A stretch of DNA of 24,733 bases from a virus: the IMG/VR virus record IMGVR_UViG_3300044695_004635, positions 1-24,733 of that record. One strand, given 5' to 3'. Below are positions 1 to 19,351 of the stretch, one piece after another. The notes beneath the pieces were generated by a model, which saw only the letters and a program-made list of their open reading frames with translations, was not told where the DNA came from and made no database searches. A program made the position numbers and the translations under genes. Position 1 is the first letter of the stretch. The number at the start of each line of letters is the position of its first letter.

Positions 1-1254
1 GCGGCGAACGACCGCGAGCAGGCCCGGACGATGTTCCGCATGGCCTCCGCCGTGATCGAGGCCTCACCGCAACTGTCGAAGCTCCTCGAGGTGATCGACT
101 ACAAGAGCGTGATCCGGAACCGGCAGCATGGGAACGAGATCCGCTGCCTGTCGAGTGAGTGGCGGAAGCAGGAAGGGCTGAACGGCTCGGTCATCCTCGA
201 CGAGATCCACAGTTTCCGCTCGCCGGCTCTGGTCGATGCCCTCGTCTACGCGATCCGCGGAACGCCGAACAGCCTCGTGATGTCGATCTCGACGGCGGGC
301 GACGACCGGAACGGAATCGGCTGGCAGTGGTGGAAGGATTCGGAACTGGTGATGAAGAACCCCGCCGCGAACCCGACCTTCTACGGGCTGATCTACGCCG
401 CCGACCCCGAGGACGACTTCTCCGACCCGGCCGTCTGGCGGAAGGCCAACCCGTCGATGGGCGTAGCGTTTCCCGAGTCGGAGTTCGCGGCCGACTACCA
501 GGACGCGACGACCGATCCGCGGAAAATGTCGAAGTTCCTCCGCTACTCGCTCAACGTCTGGCAACAGGCCGACGCCCGCTGGTTCCACGGCGACGACTGG
601 GCGAAGTGCGGCCGCGAGCCGCTGGAGCCGCTCCCCGGCCGGCCCTGCTGGGTGGGCGTCGACCTCGCGTCGAACCTCGACATGACGAGCGCGGCCTTTG
701 TGTTCCGGGAGCAGGACGGCTCCTACTCGGTCGAGTGGAAATACTGGGTGCCGTCGGAGACCGTCGGCGACCGGGTCCGCGAGGGAATCCCGTATGACAC
801 CTGGATCCGCGAAGGCTGGGTGACGGTCACGGACGGCCACCGGCTCGACCACGAGGCGGTCGCCCGCGACATCGTCGCCTACGGGGAGTCGCACGAGATC
901 CGCGGCGTCGGGGTCGATCCCTGGCAGGCCGGGGCCTTGGAGACACTCCTCCAGCGGGAAGGGATCGAAGTGAAGTCGGTCGCGCAGCGGACGGCCTACC
1001 TGAACGCGCCGTGCAAACTGCTCGAGGCCCTGGTCGTCGAGGGCCGGCTTCGGCACGGGGCGAACCCGGTCGCGGCGTTCAACGCCAACAACGTCTGTGT
1101 CTACACGGACCCCACGGGCATGATCAAGCCGGACAAGGCGAAGTCGAGCGAGAAGATCGACGGGATCGCGGCGCTCGTCAACGCCCTCGCGCTCGCCTCG
1201 ACCGACGACGCGGAAACGGGCAGCGCGGACGACTGGAAGATCCACGTTCTCTGA
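1..1254 (+). CDS. terL: Terminase large subunit, HK97-type (5' partial)
   Basis: This is the ATPase and nuclease motor that packages DNA into the prohead. The reading frame is open from base 1 and already matches the family before the first ATG (position 31), with a stretch like the conserved 'A..REQA..MF' segment, so the start and the Walker A motif lie outside the window. A Walker B motif (VILDEIH) is encoded near 190-210. The C-terminal RNase H-like nuclease shows its acidic residues in WVGVDLAS (near 650), GVGVDPWQ (near 905) and KIDGIAAL (near 1155). The end of the gene is intact, and the portal gene follows after a 77-base gap that holds a short motif and a hairpin. The family match is strong; the Terminase_1 (HK97/phi-like) subgroup is my reading of the motif order. 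Confidence 0.93.
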   Translation, partial: AANDREQARTMFRMASAVIEASPQLSKLLEVIDYKSVIRNRQHGNEIRCLSSEWRKQEGLNGSVILDEIHSFRSPALVDALVYAIRGTPNSLVMSISTAGDDRNGIGWQWWKDSELVMKNPAANPTFYGLIYAADPEDDFSDPAVWRKANPSMGVAFPESEFAADYQDATTDPRKMSKFLRYSLNVWQQADARWFHGDDWAKCGREPLEPLPGRPCWVGVDLASNLDMTSAAFVFREQDGSYSVEWKYWVPSETVGDRVREGIPYDTWIREGWVTVTDGHRLDHEAVARDIVAYGESHEIRGVGVDPWQAGALETLLQREGIEVKSVAQRTAYLNAPCKLLEALVVEGRLRHGANPVAAFNANNVCVYTDPTGMIKPDKAKSSEKIDGIAALVNALALASTDDAETGSADDWKIHVL

Positions 1255-1331: not shown

Positions 1332-2879
1332 ATGCCCCGCAAGCCCGCCGCCACTCCGCGCCGCAAGGCCGCCGCGCGGCCGATCCGCGGGACGCTCGTC
1401 AACCTGCGGAGCAGCCTGGCCGACATGACCTGGAGCCTGTCGCCTCGCGACATCGGCCCGGAGACCGCGATCCGCGTCTCCTCGATCCTCGGGGTCGTCC
1501 GCTGGATCTCGCAGGCCGTGGCGGTGATGCCCCTCCAGATCATGCGGACGCTCCCCGACGGGCGGAAGGAAGACGCGGCGATCCCCTGCTCCTACACGCT
1601 GCGGAAGCGGCCGAACCCGTGGCAGAGCGCCTACGACTTCTGGCAGCTCGTCTCCTACTGGACGGCCCTCTACGGGAACGCCTACGCCCGCGTCCTGCCC
1701 GGCCCGCGCGGCTTCTGCTCCGAGCTGCGGCCGATGCACCCGTCGCGGGTGAAGGTCGATCGGCTCTCCGACTACTCGCTCGCCTACACGTTCTTCAATG
1801 ACCGCGGGACCTGGGAGCCGGTGCCGGCCTCCGAGGTCCTGCACTGGCGGTGGCTGTCGAACAACGGCGTCGTGGGCATGGCCCCGGCGGAGCTGTGCGG
1901 GACGTCGATCGCCCTCGCCCGCCAGCTCGACATCGCGGCGACGGCCTTCTGGCAAAACTCCGCCCGGCCCGACGTCGTCCTGGAGACCCAGGAGAAGATC
2001 CCCGACGAAGCCGTCGCGGCCCTCCGCGAGCAGATCCGGACGCTCTACGGCGGCGCCGCGAACCGCGGCAGCGCGGCCGTCCTGCCGAAGAAGACCAAGC
2101 TCGTCCCGATCGAGTCGAACAGCATGGAGGCGAACCAGTTCCAAGAGTTGAGGGACGCGATCCTCCCCGACGTCTGCCGCTGCTGGGGCGTTCCCTCGAC
2201 GCTCCTCGGCGACGCCCGGATGGCGAAGTATTCGACCGTCGAGCAGGAGCATCTCTCCGCCCAGGTCTGGTGCCTGTTGCCCTGGCAGAAGCGGATGGAG
2301 GGCCCGGTCGACATGCTCCTCCAGCCGGTCTACGGCGAGGACGTCTACGCGAAGCTCGACAACCGCGGGCTCCTCCGCGGCGACACCGCGGCCCGGTCTT
2401 CGCTCTACCAAACGCTCTGGAACATGGGGGCGATCACGCCGAACGAGATCCGCGACCGCGAGGATCTGCCGCTCCTCGAGGACCCGGCCGCGAACGAGAC
2501 GTTCGTGCAACTCGGGTTCTCGACGCTGGCCGCGGCGGCCGCCGCCCAGGCCGGGGCCGCCGGGGGCGATCCGCCGGCGAGCGATCCGACCGACGACACG
2601 CCGGCAGACGACACGCCGGTCGACACGACCGTGGACTCGGAGACCGACCCGCTCGCGGCCGCAGCCTCCGGCGCGGCCCTGGCCTCGACCGCCCTCAACG
2701 GCGCCCAGGTCGCGGCGCTCCTCGATGTCCTGAACCAGATCGCCGCCGGCACGATCGACAAGGACGCGGCCGTCGCCCTGATCACCGCGGCCTTCCCGAC
2801 GATCACCGAGGCCCTCGCGTCGCAGATGGTCGACGGCACCAACCCCGCCCAGCCAGGAGGCCAGAACGATGCAACCTGA
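1332..2879 (+). CDS. Portal protein, HK97 family
   Basis: This 515-residue protein forms the dodecameric portal through which DNA enters the head. The core (about residues 40-400) has the HK97 portal pattern: the early helix with 'SSILGVVRWISQAVAVMPL', the 'YGNAYARV' segment, and a late helical stretch containing GVPSTLLGD and the phased 'ITPNEIRDREDLPLL' motif. After an Ala/Asp/Pro/Thr linker with repeated DDTP units (about 415-440), a C-terminal helical domain (about 455-500) of the kind 'NGAQVAALLDVLNQIAAG' is present; similar domains occur at the ends of other portal or minor capsid proteins. The start at 1332 is preceded by GAGGG. The 3' end overlaps the protease gene by 11 bases, and that gene's AGGAGG site (2855-2860) lies inside this one, which suggests coupled translation. 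Confidence 0.93.
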   Translation: MPRKPAATPRRKAAARPIRGTLVNLRSSLADMTWSLSPRDIGPETAIRVSSILGVVRWISQAVAVMPLQIMRTLPDGRKEDAAIPCSYTLRKRPNPWQSAYDFWQLVSYWTALYGNAYARVLPGPRGFCSELRPMHPSRVKVDRLSDYSLAYTFFNDRGTWEPVPASEVLHWRWLSNNGVVGMAPAELCGTSIALARQLDIAATAFWQNSARPDVVLETQEKIPDEAVAALREQIRTLYGGAANRGSAAVLPKKTKLVPIESNSMEANQFQELRDAILPDVCRCWGVPSTLLGDARMAKYSTVEQEHLSAQVWCLLPWQKRMEGPVDMLLQPVYGEDVYAKLDNRGLLRGDTAARSSLYQTLWNMGAITPNEIRDREDLPLLEDPAANETFVQLGFSTLAAAAAAQAGAAGGDPPASDPTDDTPADDTPVDTTVDSETDPLAAAASGAALASTALNGAQVAALLDVLNQIAAGTIDKDAAVALITAAFPTITEALASQMVDGTNPAQPGGQNDAT

Positions 2880-3822
2880 ACGCCGCTACCTCCCGATCGC
2901 CGAAGGCGGGGAACTGACGGTCGAACAGCGGGACGGCGAGGCACCGAAGATCCGCGGCATCGCGCCGCCGTGGGACTCGCTCTCCTCGGACCTGGGCGGC
3001 TTCCGCGAGAAGTTCGCGCCGACGGCGTTCGACAAGGTTCTGGCGAAGAAGCGGCTCGACGTCCCGCTGCTCTTCAACCACGACGACTCCAAGATTCTCG
3101 CGAGGACCACGAACGGCACGCTCCGGATCGAGAAGACCGACAAGGGCCTGGCCTATGAGGCCGATCCGGTCGCGACTCCGACGGCCGCCGAGGTCCTGAC
3201 GCTGATCCGCTCGAAAACGATCTTCGGCTCGTCGTTCGCGTTCACCGTGAACGAGAAGGGAGAGAGCTGGGACGAGGACGGCCGCGGCAACGTCACGAGG
3301 ACGATCAACGAGGCGTCGGGCCTCTACGATCTGTCGCCGGTCACCCGCGCGGCCTACCCGTCGTCGGCTCTCTCGGCCCGGTCCCTCGACCTCTGGCGAT
3401 CCGCCCGCGCCGCCGCGGCCGCCCCCGGCTCCGCCCCGGGGCTGCTGATCTCGATCGACTTCGACCAGACGTTCACGGCCGCCCCCGGCCTCTGGCGGAG
3501 TTTCATGACCGAGGCCCTCGCCCGCGGAAACCGCGTCTGCTGCGTGACCCGGCGCGAGGACACGGAGAAGAACCGCGAGGAACTGCGGCTCGCGTTCGGG
3601 GGGCATTTTGGCGACTTGGCCGGCGTCGTGCTCGCCGGGCCGGACCGACGAAAGCGGTCGGCCGCAGCCGACGCCGGCCTCTCGCCCGACATCTGGATCG
3701 ACGACAAGCCCGAGACCGTGCCGGAGCCAGAGGAGACCCGCGGCGTCCGCGTGTCGAGCCTCGCCGGTGCCCGGGCCGCAGCGGCCGCCGCCGTCGCGAG
3801 GATGCGGATCCATGCCGGCTAA
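2869..3822 (+). CDS. Prohead protease (S78) fused to a HAD-type phosphatase domain
   Basis: Residues 1-175 are an HK97-type prohead serine protease, which cleaves the capsid delta domain during maturation. Its catalytic His is H71 (LLFNHDD) and its Ser is in FGSSFAF (S121 or S122). After an Ala/Pro linker (about 180-190), residues 191-285 carry the HAD superfamily signature: motif I DFDQT (D197, D199), a motif II Thr in CVTRR (T227), a basic motif III candidate near K262, and motif IV IDDKPE (D278, D279). No cap domain is visible. Phage proteins of this HAD type usually stand alone. No in-frame ATG or GTG with a ribosome site lies just before the HAD part, so a true fusion is more likely than two starts. 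AGGAGG lies 8 bases before the ATG. The substrate of the HAD part is unknown. Confidence 0.88.
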   Translation: MQPERRYLPIAEGGELTVEQRDGEAPKIRGIAPPWDSLSSDLGGFREKFAPTAFDKVLAKKRLDVPLLFNHDDSKILARTTNGTLRIEKTDKGLAYEADPVATPTAAEVLTLIRSKTIFGSSFAFTVNEKGESWDEDGRGNVTRTINEASGLYDLSPVTRAAYPSSALSARSLDLWRSARAAAAAPGSAPGLLISIDFDQTFTAAPGLWRSFMTEALARGNRVCCVTRREDTEKNREELRLAFGGHFGDLAGVVLAGPDRRKRSAAADAGLSPDIWIDDKPETVPEPEETRGVRVSSLAGARAAAAAAVARMRIHAG

Positions 3823-3967
3823 GTGCACGCGGTGCGGCGGTCGGGCCCGCGTCGATTCGTCGAAGCGGGCCGGCGACCGCCAGGTCCAGTACGTCGAGTG
3901 CCAGTCCTGCCGCGCCCGGTGCCGGCAGGTCGTCCCTGCGGATTCAATCTGGAGGCGCAGCCGATGA
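3812..3967 (+). CDS. Small zinc-ribbon protein
   Basis: This 51-residue basic protein has CxxC (C5, C8) and CxxC (C30, C33) pairs spaced by 21 residues, plus C37, so it probably binds one zinc as a ribbon. Size and cysteine spacing recall Com-like phage zinc proteins, but the likeness is too weak for a name. The ATG overlaps the end of the protease gene by 11 bases, with a GAGGAT ribosome site at 3798-3803. Its stop overlaps the next start (ATGA). It opens the block inserted between protease and capsid genes. Nucleic acid binding is inference from the fold. Confidence 0.65.
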   Translation: MPAKCTRCGGRARVDSSKRAGDRQVQYVECQSCRARCRQVVPADSIWRRSR

Positions 3968-4335: not shown

Positions 4336-4904
4336 TGATCACCGCGCTCCTACTCGCCGCCGCCGCTCTGCTGTTCGCGAGCCCCGAACACCTGAAGGCG
4401 ATCCGCGAGGCCGTCCGGCAGAAGGCCGCCGCGGCAACGCTCCAGCCGCGGCACCTGCTCGCCAGTGGCCTGGTGATCGGCGCCGCGATGGTCTGGTTCT
4501 CGGCCGGCCGCGACGAGGCGGCGCCGCCGCCCCCGGCCCCGGCCCCGGCCCCGGCGGGGCTGCACCTGCGCGGCCTGTTCAAGGGGCCGACGGCGTCGGA
4601 GGACGCGGCCACGATCGGCGGCCTCTGCTCCGAGCTGGCCGACGAGATCGAATGGGACGGCCGGCAGGCCGAGCCGTCCCTGAAGAGCGGCGTCGCGTTC
4701 GACGACCTGCGGCAGCGGGCCCGCGAGCTGCGATGCCGGGGCGTGTCGATCGGAGCCCGCCAGCCGGCGGCCCGAGACGCGATCCGCGTCTACCTCGAGG
4801 AGCAGGTCGGGACCGCCGGCGGCCCGGTGACACCGGAGCAGCGGGCGAAGTGGGTCTCGGCCCTCCGCGACATCGGCCGGGAGGCGACCGATGCGGCCCG
4901 ATAG
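4335..4904 (+). CDS. Membrane protein with proline stalk, unknown function
   Basis: This 189-residue protein has two hydrophobic segments (about 1-16 and 41-57) separated by a basic stretch. After these comes an Ala/Pro stalk (about 62-74, encoded by tandem CCCCGG units) and a soluble helical domain (about 80-185). The layout suggests a membrane-anchored protein whose C-terminal domain reaches outside the membrane. The ATG at 4335 overlaps the previous stop (TGATG), and the 3' end overlaps the peptidase gene by 14 bases. It could be a holin-like or spanin-like partner of the peptidase encoded next. This is inference from position and topology only. Confidence 0.68.
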   Translation: MITALLLAAAALLFASPEHLKAIREAVRQKAAAATLQPRHLLASGLVIGAAMVWFSAGRDEAAPPPPAPAPAPAGLHLRGLFKGPTASEDAATIGGLCSELADEIEWDGRQAEPSLKSGVAFDDLRQRARELRCRGVSIGARQPAARDAIRVYLEEQVGTAGGPVTPEQRAKWVSALRDIGREATDAAR

Positions 4905-5982
4905 GCTTCGGCTCCTCGCCGTCTCCCTGCTTCTCGGTCTGGCCTTTGCGGCGGTCGTCGCGAGCCTGACGGGCGGCCCCCGGCCGGCCGGCTGGATCGA
5001 CGAGGGCGACGGCCGGTTCGGCTGGCGGCCGGACCCCGCCGGCGTTCGCGAGTTCCTCGCCGAGCTGCCGGAGCCGACGTTCGCCCGGGCCGGGGCCGAG
5101 ACCGTGGCGAAGGCCCAGGGGAAGGACACGTTCCTGTACCGCCCGGCCTACAAGGCCCACCAGGCCCTCTACAGCCGGCCGTGGATCGTCGAGCGGCAGG
5201 GCATCGGCGACTGTGTTTCGTGGGGCTGGGCCCACGGGATCTACGTCGCCCAGTGCGTCGACTGGGAAACCGGCCGGCTCGCGAACCCGCCCCCGTTCCC
5301 ATCCACCGAGGCGATCTACGGCGGCTCGCGCGTCGAGGCCCGGGGCAAGTCGGGCGACGGCGCCGCCCCCGTCGGCGGCTGGAGCGACGGCTCCTACGGC
5401 GCGGCCGCGGCCCGCTGGGTCCGCGACTGGGGCGTCGTCTACCGCGAGCAGATCGGCGACCTCGACCTCCGGGCCTACTCCGCCGACCGGGCGAAGCAGT
5501 GGGGCGCCTACGGCTGCGGCGGCAAGGGCGACGGCGGCCGGCTGGACGGCGTCGCGAAGCGGCACCCGGCGACCCATATCGCCCTCGTGACGACCTGGGA
5601 CGAGGCCGCCTCCGCGGTCGAGGCCGGCTTTCCGATCCCGGTCGCCTCGATGCAGGGATTCACGAACACCCGCAACGCCCACGGCTACGCCGCGGCTTCC
5701 GGCCAGTGGGCGCACGAGATGTGCTTCGTGGCCGTCCGCTACCAGCGGAACGGCTCGCCGTCCGACGCTCTCCTCTGCCTGAATTCCTGGGGGCCGAATT
5801 GGATCACCGGCCCGAAGTGGCCGGCAGACATGCCCGACGGATCGTTCTGGGTCGAGCGGCGTGTCGTCGAGCGGATGCTCGCCCAGGAGGACTCGTTCGC
5901 GGTCGGGTCGATCGCCGGCTTCGGCTGGCGCGACCTGCACCACGGGAACTGGATGACCCCCGCGCCGGAGGCTGGCCGATGA
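4891..5982 (+). CDS. Papain-like (C1A) cysteine peptidase with signal sequence
   Basis: This 363-residue protein starts with a signal peptide or signal anchor (about residues 5-26). The rest has the C1 papain layout: Gln (Q103) just before the nucleophile in GIGDCVSW (C108), His in the 'HEMCFVAVRY' strand (H275) and Asn in LNSWGPNW (N298), the counterpart of the papain NSWG motif. All catalytic positions are kept, so an active enzyme is expected. It sits between membrane protein genes in the block separating protease from capsid. A lysis or envelope-degrading role is attractive because I find no classical endolysin in the window. Papain-like enzymes normally cut proteins, so attack on host surface protein or processing of a virion protein are alternatives. 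The GGGAGG site near 4879-4884 supports the start. Confidence 0.8.
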   Translation: MRPDRLRLLAVSLLLGLAFAAVVASLTGGPRPAGWIDEGDGRFGWRPDPAGVREFLAELPEPTFARAGAETVAKAQGKDTFLYRPAYKAHQALYSRPWIVERQGIGDCVSWGWAHGIYVAQCVDWETGRLANPPPFPSTEAIYGGSRVEARGKSGDGAAPVGGWSDGSYGAAAARWVRDWGVVYREQIGDLDLRAYSADRAKQWGAYGCGGKGDGGRLDGVAKRHPATHIALVTTWDEAASAVEAGFPIPVASMQGFTNTRNAHGYAAASGQWAHEMCFVAVRYQRNGSPSDALLCLNSWGPNWITGPKWPADMPDGSFWVERRVVERMLAQEDSFAVGSIAGFGWRDLHHGNWMTPAPEAGR

Positions 5983-6693: not shown

Positions 6694-7917
6694 ATGCCCA
6701 GCCCCAAGCTCGCTCGACTCCAGGACGAAACCGTCGCCATCGAGAACGAGATCAACGATCTCCGTTCCGTGACCCCGGCCGACGACGCCGACAAGAAGCG
6801 GATCGAGGAGCGGCTCGCCGCCCTGTCGAACCGGGCCGGCGAGATCGCAGCCGAGGCGAAGGGCGAGCGGGCCCTCGACGACAGGCTCGCCTCGCTGCGG
6901 GCCGTCCGGACCAGCGACTCCGAGCCCCGCGGCGATGATCCGAAGGCCGACGAGCCGGCGCCCCGGTCGGACATCCGCTCCGGCGTCCGGGCGTTCTCCT
7001 CGGTCAAGGCCGCGGCTCTGGTCGGCGGCTACCTCCGCCAGCTCTTCACCGGCGAGGTCCGGGCGATGGGCGAGACGAGCAGCACCTACGACGCGAAGGG
7101 GGCCGAGTACGTCATCGGCGAGCTGTTCGCGGCGATCGTGAACCGGCTCCAGTACAGCTCGGTCGCCCTCCAGCTCGCGACCGTCGTCACCCCGCGCGGG
7201 GCGAAGATCTCGTTCCCGAAGGTCGGCGACGCGACCGCGTCGTTCGTGGCCGAAGGGACGGCGACCACGGATCAGGATCTGGCGACGAGCATCGCGGACC
7301 TGACGCTCTACGAGATGCGGGCCTCGTGCGCCGTCTCGCGGGCCCTCCTCGAGGACAGCCCGATCGACGTCGCCGGCCTCGTGGCCGATCGGTTCGCCCT
7401 GGCCTACGCCCAGAAGTTCGACGCGGTCTGGCTGGGCGGCAACGCTTCCAGTCCGTCGATCACCGGCCTCGCGGCCGCCGTGGCCGGCGGGAACACCATC
7501 ACCGTCGGGGCCTCGGCCGCGACGACTCTCAACAACCTTGCCGACGTCGTCGGCAAGGTGGACGAGACCGTGATGGGCACCGCCTCCTGGGTGGTGTCGA
7601 AGGCCGGCTGGGTGGACCTGATGAAGCTTTGGTCGTCCCAGCAGACGACCACGACCGTGGGCGGCGGGCGGATCGTGCCGACTGTCTTCGGTGCCCCGGT
7701 GTACCTCGTCAAGGGTTTGCCCTCGACGACGCTCGCCCTGTACGGCGATTTCATGATGGCTTCGGCTGTCGGCGTGAAGGACGGCGGCCTGGAGATCGAG
7801 GCCGGCCGCGAGATCCTGATGCGGAACCGCCAGGTTCTCTACGTCGCGAATACCCGGTTCGGCGTGGCGAACCACGCCCCCGAGTTCGTCGGCCGGCTGG
7901 CGAAGGCTGCGTCCTGA
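6694..7917 (+). CDS. Major capsid protein, HK97 fold
   Basis: This 407-residue protein builds the icosahedral shell. Residues 1-70 are a charged coiled coil (LARLQDETVAIENEI and following), matching the scaffolding delta domain that the prohead protease removes. A disordered acidic linker (about 72-95) follows and should hold the cleavage site. Residues from about 125 on fit the HK97 capsid fold, with an N-arm region 'YVIGELFAAIVNRL', 'RGAKISFPKVGD', and the P/A-domain segments ending in 'TRFGVANHAPEFVGRL'. ATG 6694 is supported by AAGGA at 6681-6685; upstream open frame lacks a ribosome site. The 101-base spacer before it and the large hairpin after it suggest this gene is expressed differently from its neighbours. 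Confidence 0.93.
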   Translation: MPSPKLARLQDETVAIENEINDLRSVTPADDADKKRIEERLAALSNRAGEIAAEAKGERALDDRLASLRAVRTSDSEPRGDDPKADEPAPRSDIRSGVRAFSSVKAAALVGGYLRQLFTGEVRAMGETSSTYDAKGAEYVIGELFAAIVNRLQYSSVALQLATVVTPRGAKISFPKVGDATASFVAEGTATTDQDLATSIADLTLYEMRASCAVSRALLEDSPIDVAGLVADRFALAYAQKFDAVWLGGNASSPSITGLAAAVAGGNTITVGASAATTLNNLADVVGKVDETVMGTASWVVSKAGWVDLMKLWSSQQTTTTVGGGRIVPTVFGAPVYLVKGLPSTTLALYGDFMMASAVGVKDGGLEIEAGREILMRNRQVLYVANTRFGVANHAPEFVGRLAKAAS

Positions 7918-17734: not shown

Positions 17735-17947
17735 ATGCCACGGCTAGAGACGAGCCTCGACGACACCGACGACGACGACACGCCGGATGTCGGCATGTCT
17801 GACGACATTCAGTGGATGAGGAAACCAAAGGCCAAGGAGGGCCCAAATGGCAGGCGATCCGATGACCGAGGCCGCAAAGCGGCTCGTGGCCGAGCATCCA
17901 AACCACTCCGCCCGCGGGCTGGCAAGAATGCTCGTCGCCGAAAGTAA
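17735..17947 (+). CDS. Possible small charged protein overlapping the phosphoesterase
   Basis: This 70-residue frame has an acidic start (DDTDDDDTPDVGMSDD) and a strongly basic end rich in Arg and Lys. GAGGG at 17724-17728 precedes the ATG. It fills the 133-base gap before the phosphoesterase gene and then overlaps that gene by 101 bases in another frame. Third-base GC is about 77% in the unique part and falls in the overlap. The unique part looks coding; the end may be incidental. Function unknown. Confidence 0.4.
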   Translation: MPRLETSLDDTDDDDTPDVGMSDDIQWMRKPKAKEGPNGRRSDDRGRKAARGRASKPLRPRAGKNARRRK

Positions 17948-18845
17948 GGGAGCCCTCACGCTGGAGTCGGCCCGGACAAGGATCCGGGCGCAGTTCGGCC
18001 AGTCCGGCAGGAAGCGCGACCGGCAGTACGCCACGGCCCCGCGGCCGGCCCGCCAGCCCGGGCACCGGTTCGCGATGCCGGCTTCGAAGGCCGAGCCGTG
18101 GACGCCTCACGACCTGGGCGTCGTCGGGAAGGTCGGGATCCTGTCGGATATCCACGTTCCCTACCATGACCCGATCGCCCTCCGGGCCGCGGTCGATCAC
18201 CTGGCCGAGGCCGAGATCGACGCGCTCGTCCTGAACGGCGACACGGCCGACTTCTACACGATCAGCCGCTGGACCAAGGACCCGCGAAAGCGCGACCTCG
18301 GAGGCGAACTGGCCCAGATCCGCGAGCTCCTCGGCTGGATCCGGCAGACGTTCCCCGAGATCCCGATCCTGTTCAAAAACGGAAACCACGAAGAGAGATG
18401 GCGCGCGTGGCTTTGGCAGCACGCCCCGGAGATCTCGGCCGAGCCGGAGATGGGCCTCGCCGCGTGGCTGCACCTGGAGCGGCACGGGATGCAGCTCGTC
18501 GAGGACCATCGGCCGGTCATGCTCGGGAAGCTGCCGGTCCTTCACGGCCACGAGAAGGGGAAGGGAATCTCCTCGCCGGTCAACCAGGCCCGCGGGGCGT
18601 TCCTCCGGCTCCATCACACGGTCCTCGAGGGGCACGGCCACCGGACGAGCGGACACTGCGAGCCTGATATGTGGGGCTCGGAGGTGTTCTGCTGGTCAAC
18701 GGGGTGCCTCTGCGACCTCCGGCCGGAATACGCCCGGATCAACAAGTGGAACCACGGCTTCGCGATCGTCGGGGTCCATGAAGGCGGGGAGTTCGACGTC
18801 GAAAACCTGCGGATCACGGCCGACGGGAAGGTCCGGTCCTCGTGA
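17847..18845 (+). CDS. Calcineurin-like metallophosphoesterase with N-terminal HTH-like region
   Basis: This 332-residue protein has the full set of binuclear metal motifs: DxH (D101, H103 in SDIHVPYHD), GD (D132 in LNGDTADF), GNHE (N180, H181), a His in VLHGHE (H233/H235) and GHGH (H263/H265). Residues 5-60 form a helical region, 'AKRLVAEHPNHSARGLARMLVAE', then 'ESARTRIRAQFG', which resembles a helix-turn-helix found in front of similar phage phosphoesterases and may bind DNA or RNA. AAGGAGG lies six bases before the ATG. It probably hydrolyses a nucleic acid or nucleotide phosphoester; the substrate is not visible. It overlaps the next gene by GTGA. Confidence 0.88.
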   Translation: MAGDPMTEAAKRLVAEHPNHSARGLARMLVAESKGALTLESARTRIRAQFGQSGRKRDRQYATAPRPARQPGHRFAMPASKAEPWTPHDLGVVGKVGILSDIHVPYHDPIALRAAVDHLAEAEIDALVLNGDTADFYTISRWTKDPRKRDLGGELAQIRELLGWIRQTFPEIPILFKNGNHEERWRAWLWQHAPEISAEPEMGLAAWLHLERHGMQLVEDHRPVMLGKLPVLHGHEKGKGISSPVNQARGAFLRLHHTVLEGHGHRTSGHCEPDMWGSEVFCWSTGCLCDLRPEYARINKWNHGFAIVGVHEGGEFDVENLRITADGKVRSS

Positions 18846-19351
18846 GCCCGTACATCCTGACCGACGCGGACCTCGACGAGGCCGAGCGGCAGGCCCGGCG
18901 GTTCCAAGGGGCCTGGACTGGCACATCGGGGACGCTAGCGTCGTGGCTGTTCCACGCGGTGACCACGATCAGGGAGGAGCGAAGGATGAAGGAGCAGCAA
19001 GGGGACCGGGTGAAGTTCGCCACGGGCGCGGTTCGCTCCGGCGACGCGGAGGCGACGCGCTACGATCTGATCTCGCCGATTGGCCTTGAGGCCGTGGCCC
19101 GGACCTGCGCCGAGGGGGCCGCGAAATACTCCGACTACAACTGGGAACGTGGGATGCCGGTTCACGATCTCCTGAACCATGCCCTCCGGCACATCTACCA
19201 ATACCTCGCCGGCGACCGCTCGGAGGATCATCTCCCGCATGCGGCCTGGGGGCTGCTCGCGGCGATCCACTCGGAGAAGCTCTGGCCGCACCTGAACGCC
19301 GGCACGCTCCGCGGGCCGGGCTGCGAGCGGCCGCAGGAGCCGACGCCGTGA
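18842..19351 (+). CDS. dATP/dGTP diphosphohydrolase-like protein (DUF5664 type)
   Basis: This 169-residue protein has a core (about residues 73-145) with 'RYDLISPIGLEAVARTCAEGAAKY', 'NWERGMPVHDLLNHALRHIYQYL' and 'EDHLPHAAWGLLAAIHSEK', the pattern of the dATP/dGTP diphosphohydrolase N-terminal family, MazG-like all-helical enzymes that remove pyrophosphate from dNTPs. Conserved Glu and His residues in these helices should bind metal. It may adjust nucleotide pools during phage replication. The GTG at 18842 gives a 48-residue N-terminal extension; a second start, ATG 18986, has an AGGGAGGAG site six bases before it and would give the core domain alone. It ends in a GTGA overlap with the next gene. 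Confidence 0.75.
   Translation: MSPYILTDADLDEAERQARRFQGAWTGTSGTLASWLFHAVTTIREERRMKEQQGDRVKFATGAVRSGDAEATRYDLISPIGLEAVARTCAEGAAKYSDYNWERGMPVHDLLNHALRHIYQYLAGDRSEDHLPHAAWGLLAAIHSEKLWPHLNAGTLRGPGCERPQEPTP

Follow-up and report, generated by a model that had tools for sequence, protein, structure and literature searches.

A predicted HAD phosphatase domain fused in frame with the prohead protease in a large group of phages

Why would a phage join a phosphatase to the protease of its own prohead? The question is raised by one open reading frame in a 24,733-nucleotide stretch of viral DNA (IMG/VR record IMGVR_UViG_3300044695_004635, hereafter the window). The answer favored here, with moderate confidence, is that the protease has been turned into a cargo carrier and that the HAD domain is a phosphatase of the capsid lumen.

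The fused gene and its domains

The fused gene (2869..3822, + strand) was a stop-free reading frame of 317 codons, with AGGAGG closely preceding its ATG, and encoded a 317-aa protein made up of an S78 prohead protease, a HAD phosphatase domain and a protease C-terminal tail. The portal gene (1332..2879, +; PF04860, 7.6e-74) lay directly upstream and overlapped the start of the fusion, preceded by the gene for the terminase large subunit (31..1254, +; PF20441, 1.8e-44), the 5′ end of which fell outside the window. An HK97-type major capsid protein (MCP) with an N-terminal delta-like region was encoded at 6694..7917 (+; PF05065, 1.3e-25). Judged by sequence, this MCP is the expected substrate of the fused protease, and the portal–protease–MCP order fits. 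A small Cys-rich, zinc-ribbon-like ORF (3812..3967, +) had its ATG overlapping the stop of the fusion gene (ATGCCGGCTAA), and a homologue of it occurred in the clade of contig L119 described below. The head operon also contained a 363-aa ORF (4891-5982) with no Pfam or PHROG match; a similar ORF stood before a separate HAD gene in contig L266. Elsewhere in the window, a dATP/dGTP diphosphohydrolase-type protein (18842-19351; PF18909, 1e-18) was adjoined by a calcineurin-like phosphoesterase (17847-18845; PF00149).

The Peptidase_S78 catalytic domain, with H71 and S122, covered residues 17-173 (2917..3387, +) and was delimited by profile (PF04586, 1.6e-33; 116.6 bits against a curated cut-off of 21), conservation and AlphaFold2 (AF2). 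It was followed by a variable linker with a predicted helix (residues 174-191; 3388..3441, +; mean column conservation 0.60) and by a minimal, capless HAD domain (residues 192-284; 3442..3720, +), the limits of which were drawn from PHROG matches, motifs, conservation, AF2 and Foldseek. A second variable linker of low confidence (residues 285-296; 3721..3756, +; conservation 0.58, pLDDT <50 over 287-297) led to a conserved Ala-rich C-terminal helix (residues 297-317; 3757..3819, +), recognized from an AF2 helix at 298-316 and from comparison with the tails of sister proteases. The HAD motifs were D197-F-D199-Q-T201, T227 in CVTRR, K262/R263 and D278-D279. The initial annotation had described the S78 His and Ser followed in one frame by all four HAD motifs, with no internal start between them, and this description held for the window copy, in which ATG, GTG and TTG were absent from the 30 codons preceding the HAD domain.

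The HAD domain belongs to a divergent family. No Pfam or NCBIfam HAD model scored above its cut-off for the domain, which is therefore assigned to the HADs by its motifs, its predicted structure and its matches in fold searches. There was likewise no family-level Pfam or NCBIfam match to Swiss-army-knife HADs or to the T4 PNK phosphatase, the likeness to T4 PNK being one of fold only, and a PDB sequence search with the domain returned nothing meaningful. Residues 192-291 matched PHROG 4256 (7e-16) and PHROG 4919 (1e-15), both families of unknown function, with which they shared a 90-residue domain and the motifs D-x-D-x-T, hhhT-x-R, K and W-I-D-D-x-P. Proteins of these two families are free-standing and encoded in phage metabolism regions, whereas the copy in the window is inserted in a head protein.

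The structure prediction that the initial annotation had proposed returned a HAD fold. The AF2 model of the HAD domain alone, built from an alignment of 35 relatives, had a mean pLDDT of 89.6; strand 1 ended at D-x-D, strand 2 at the Thr and strand 4 at D-D, while the Lys/Arg began the helix after strand 3. The domain is predicted from this model to have a Rossmannoid HAD fold with the catalytic D, T, K and DD at canonical positions. Foldseek matches in the PDB were headed largely by HAD phosphatases, including AphA (prob 0.98) and BT_0820 (0.99), and also comprised the CopA P-domain, KDN-9-P phosphatase and T4 PNK phosphatase; the leading hits, mostly HADs, had probabilities of 0.9-0.99. TM-scores were only 0.4-0.5, and the best E-value was 5.5e-3, with none ≤0.001, modest E-values being expected of a capless domain of 90 residues. 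The T4 PNK 3′-phosphatase, AphA and BT_0820 (prob 0.8-0.99) had in common with it the HAD fold, D-x-D, the motif II Thr/Ser and the acidic motif IV, but at ~13-18% identity, and they are larger or carry extra elements. The viral fold library BFVD gave 11 matches with E<0.001, reaching down to 1e-7, one of which was named HAD-like. All four motifs were kept in 35 diverse family members, and the phosphatase is, from its residues, apparently catalytically intact. The full-length AF2 model (pLDDT 80, pTM 0.55) consisted of two folded domains of undefined relative orientation, with low confidence at 164-171 and 287-297 and helices at 171-183 and 298-316.

Spread and conservation of the fusion

A search for the same domain order elsewhere showed that the window was one case of many. 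A protein scan of IMG/VR recovered 33 contigs with the fusion, and a scan with the HAD alignment found HAD and protease in one ORF in 80/80 of the best 80 of 536 relatives, a recurrence that rules out chance. The fusion was thus present in at least 104 other IMG/VR contigs (these 80 and 24 further ones) and in one Planctomycetaceae MAG (L118), the contig of which also encoded an integrase. The phages that bear it are a freshwater family, and their hosts are probably planctomycetes.

Residue conservation was computed over 64 full-length fusions. In the HAD domain D197, D199, T201, R228, R229 and R263 were 100% conserved, D278, D279 and K262 98%, and T227 was either T or S; in the protease H71 was kept in 63/64 (98%) and S122 in 64/64 (100%). 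Mean column conservation was higher for the HAD domain (0.81) than for the protease (0.72), and dN/dS was 0.36 against 0.45 (NG86, rough in such GC-rich DNA). These sequence comparisons indicate that the HAD domain is under purifying selection. It is very improbable that the domain serves as a catalytically irrelevant stable spacer or as a regulator of the protease. Such a role would agree with linkers that vary around a domain that is kept, but the catalytic residues were all invariant in HADs down to 58% identity to that of the window, and standalone relatives retained the same residues.

The two halves of the gene had partly separate histories. With contig L018 the window shared 99% of the HAD domain but 53% of the protease, and with L009 it shared 71% of the HAD domain but 92% of the protease; 51 pairs resembled the first pattern (HAD closer) and 26 pairs the second (protease closer). 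Since protease and HAD can be exchanged separately, the junction is a recombination point, and both halves are kept. The initial annotation had suggested that self-cleavage at an Ala/Pro linker might release the HAD; this suggestion gained no support, as the composition of the linker varied among fusions (e.g., RGMVAHRAESRG in L009) and Ala/Pro was not conserved. A possible internal start, an ATG with GGAG just upstream located 9-11 codons before the HAD domain, was found in ~15/64 fusions (L072-L094, L118). Because this Shine-Dalgarno-like start precedes the domain, free HAD may also be made in that sub-clade; a universal internal start was rejected on the same count. One contig (L133, 5410-6270) encoded two HAD copies in a single ORF, the first of which is probably inactive because WIDA replaces WIDD.

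The sister clade and the C-terminal tail

The sister group of the fusion-bearing phages comprised the MAG contig L119 and 37 viral contigs (L142-L178). Its S78 proteases lacked the HAD domain and had ~70 residues after the core, forming a helical tail that ended in LDALIGARAATALARMKANGL. A separate downstream HAD gene was present in 13/38 of these contigs, and many of the others had kilobases of downstream sequence with no HAD. With the HAD either free or missing in this clade, the fusion itself is dispensable for viability. Gene order in the sister contigs was protease, small Cys-rich ORF and separate HAD, and the homologous small ORF follows the fusion in the window.

This order bears on the possibility, raised by the initial annotation, that a sequencing error had removed a stop codon. 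A lost stop or a chimeric assembly could be suspected since relatives with separate genes exist and since one contig (L033) had a frameshift within the HAD domain. Loss of a stop codon cannot yield the fusion, however, because the small ORF separates the sister protease from the HAD gene, so that read-through would not join them; moreover, more than 100 contigs carried the fusion, diverging to about 52-58% identity. The comparative data refute an artefact, the probability of which we regard as negligible.

The initial annotation had described the protease as followed by the HAD domain, but the comparison with the sister clade spoke against a simple C-terminal addition. The tail of the fusion (SSLAGARAAAAAAVARMRIHAG) resembled the sister protease tail (z 3.2; 3/300 shuffles reached the score) but showed no such likeness to the end of the separate HADs (z 0.8), the comparison being one of short Ala-rich helices. 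Because the sister protease tail reappears after the HAD domain in the fusions, we conclude from sequence, with moderate confidence, that the HAD domain lies downstream of the protease core but ahead of the C-terminal tail that belongs to the protease itself. The alternative that the tail is part of the HAD fold was set aside: standalone relatives end shortly past the DD motif, which makes a protease origin more likely. It was also considered that the tail mimics the MCP cleavage site, as GVRVSS in the window resembles GVRAFSS of its MCP; this reading was dropped since the tail was unchanged where the MCP junction differed (L056, L029). The helix at residues 297-317 is proposed to be a capsid-targeting tail. 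Fused and separate planctomycete HADs formed one clade (100/97) in a HAD tree that was poorly resolved (93 columns) and left the direction of change unsettled.

Other HAD fusions and a candidate cargo phosphatase

Two lambda-type portals, in L037 (2147-4288) and L265 (302-2179), carried a HAD of the same family at their C-terminus; their PF05136 matches were 5.5e-46 and 2.8e-44, respectively. Both genes lay directly upstream of a protease or protease-capsid gene, and each is known from one contig; with two contigs only, and with relatives of the L037 portal lacking the HAD, portal::HAD was rejected as a common form. The BFVD also lists uncultured proteins named 'Prohead protease' and 'XkdF' with a matching domain. 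A further copy stood at the C-terminus of a 903-aa FkbM methyltransferase/glycosyltransferase protein (L286, 580-3288). Except for this methyltransferase, the fusion partners found are proteins inside or lining the prohead. Standalone HAD relatives lay near genes for MazG, ribonucleotide reductase, thymidylate synthase or Sir2.

The initial annotation had named no described protein with this layout, but parallels exist. In Lactobacillus phage LJ, the closest system in culture, a HAD domain forms the N-terminus of the S78 head maturation protease (ATN93899.1; L353 5109-6065 = MF999224 20108-21064). HAD and S78 are thus joined in one polypeptide there too, but in reversed order and with a HAD of another family (BT_0820/2obb-like, 1.4e-16); 52 viral contigs related to LJ matched the protease part only, and close relatives of LJ had no HAD. 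Nudix (NudE) domains fused to MuF, to portals and to a capsid-processing serine peptidase have been published and interpreted as packaged and injected (PMC9503650), as have fusions of MuF or portal with 2H and inorganic pyrophosphatase domains (PMC5512222). In all of these, as here, where it is known from sequence, a phosphate-processing enzyme is joined to a lumenal head protein; the present case differs in its enzyme fold, in the position before the tail and in being conserved as the usual form throughout one group of phages. In its catalytic domain, His/Ser and portal-MCP position the protease resembles S78 prohead proteases of the HK97 gp4 type (PF04586), the usual members of which have no HAD, those of the sister clade having only the helical C-terminal tail. 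No HAD fused to a prohead protease was found in a literature search of open-licence papers. Fusions of enzymes to head proteins are therefore already published and the HAD-in-protease variant is new; it stands out because it is fixed in a large group of phages, because the HAD is inserted ahead of the tail and because unfused sisters are available for comparison.

What can be stated of the fusion is that an enzyme domain shares the reading frame of a lumenal head protein and that this arrangement is conserved across phages. The earlier suggestion that the phosphatase is carried into the capsid became likelier, because the HAD domain is upstream of the protease tail and because portal::HAD fusions exist. 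Under the cargo reading, the C-terminal tail would target the fusion into the assembling prohead, a role comparable to that proposed for the C-terminal propeptide of the SPN3US protease (PMC7411985), and the HAD would be co-packaged with the protease, of which about 60 copies enter the prohead in HK97 and about 90 in D3 (PMC12749128). The protease would cut the capsid protein and itself, and the compact HAD might then stay with the packaged DNA and dephosphorylate nucleotides or the ends of nucleic acids, most likely once the next host has been entered; these last two steps are put forward more tentatively. A nucleotide or nucleic-acid-end phosphatase is our best guess by analogy, because standalone relatives lie near the genes named above and the nearest folds include enzymes that act on nucleotides or polynucleotide ends. 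Duda, Oh and Hendrix reportedly observed in 2013 that proteins fused to C-terminal fragments of the HK97 protease are brought into proheads.

Two other roles of an active HAD were weighed. It is unlikely that the HAD is a cytoplasmic enzyme of late infection, engaged in nucleotide salvage or in processing RNA ends or signalling nucleotides, with the fusion serving only to couple expression. Most phage members of the family stand alone, often near nucleotide-metabolism genes, the sister clade is served by a HAD gene that stands apart within the operon, and one sub-clade has possible internal starts, all of which would suit such a role; yet it is lumenal head proteins (protease, portal), rather than early enzymes, that recur as partners, the HAD lies before the protease tail and not at an end, and the window copy has no internal start. 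It is rather improbable that the HAD acts only in the prohead during assembly, where its targets might for example be phosphorylated head proteins, bound nucleotides or the phosphates of DNA ends, and that it is afterwards excised and disappears together with the fragments of the protease. The placement before the protease tail would agree equally with this role, as would the two flexible linkers that flank the domain. Prohead proteases are usually digested and leave the head, and the HAD may share this fate. We know, however, of no phosphate-dependent maturation step in HK97-type heads, and the HAD-less sister phages have homologous head genes.

A broader extension of the cargo reading is offered as a speculation that we think somewhat doubtful: proteases and portals may be natural cargo vehicles, with phages repeatedly splicing HADs into lumenal head proteins so that dozens of copies would be packed, freed by self-cleavage and delivered to dephosphorylate defence signals or damaged nucleic-acid ends. 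The fusion is an example from nature of a prohead protease that has apparently become an enzyme-loading device, and the unfused or HAD-less sister phages provide a built-in control. Provided that the HAD is packaged, a search for domains inserted ahead of the protease tail could reveal enzymes delivered by virions, and the fusion would offer a naturally occurring model for filling HK97-type shells with cargo. A testable function is also offered for two PHROG families of unknown function that occur in hundreds of phages.
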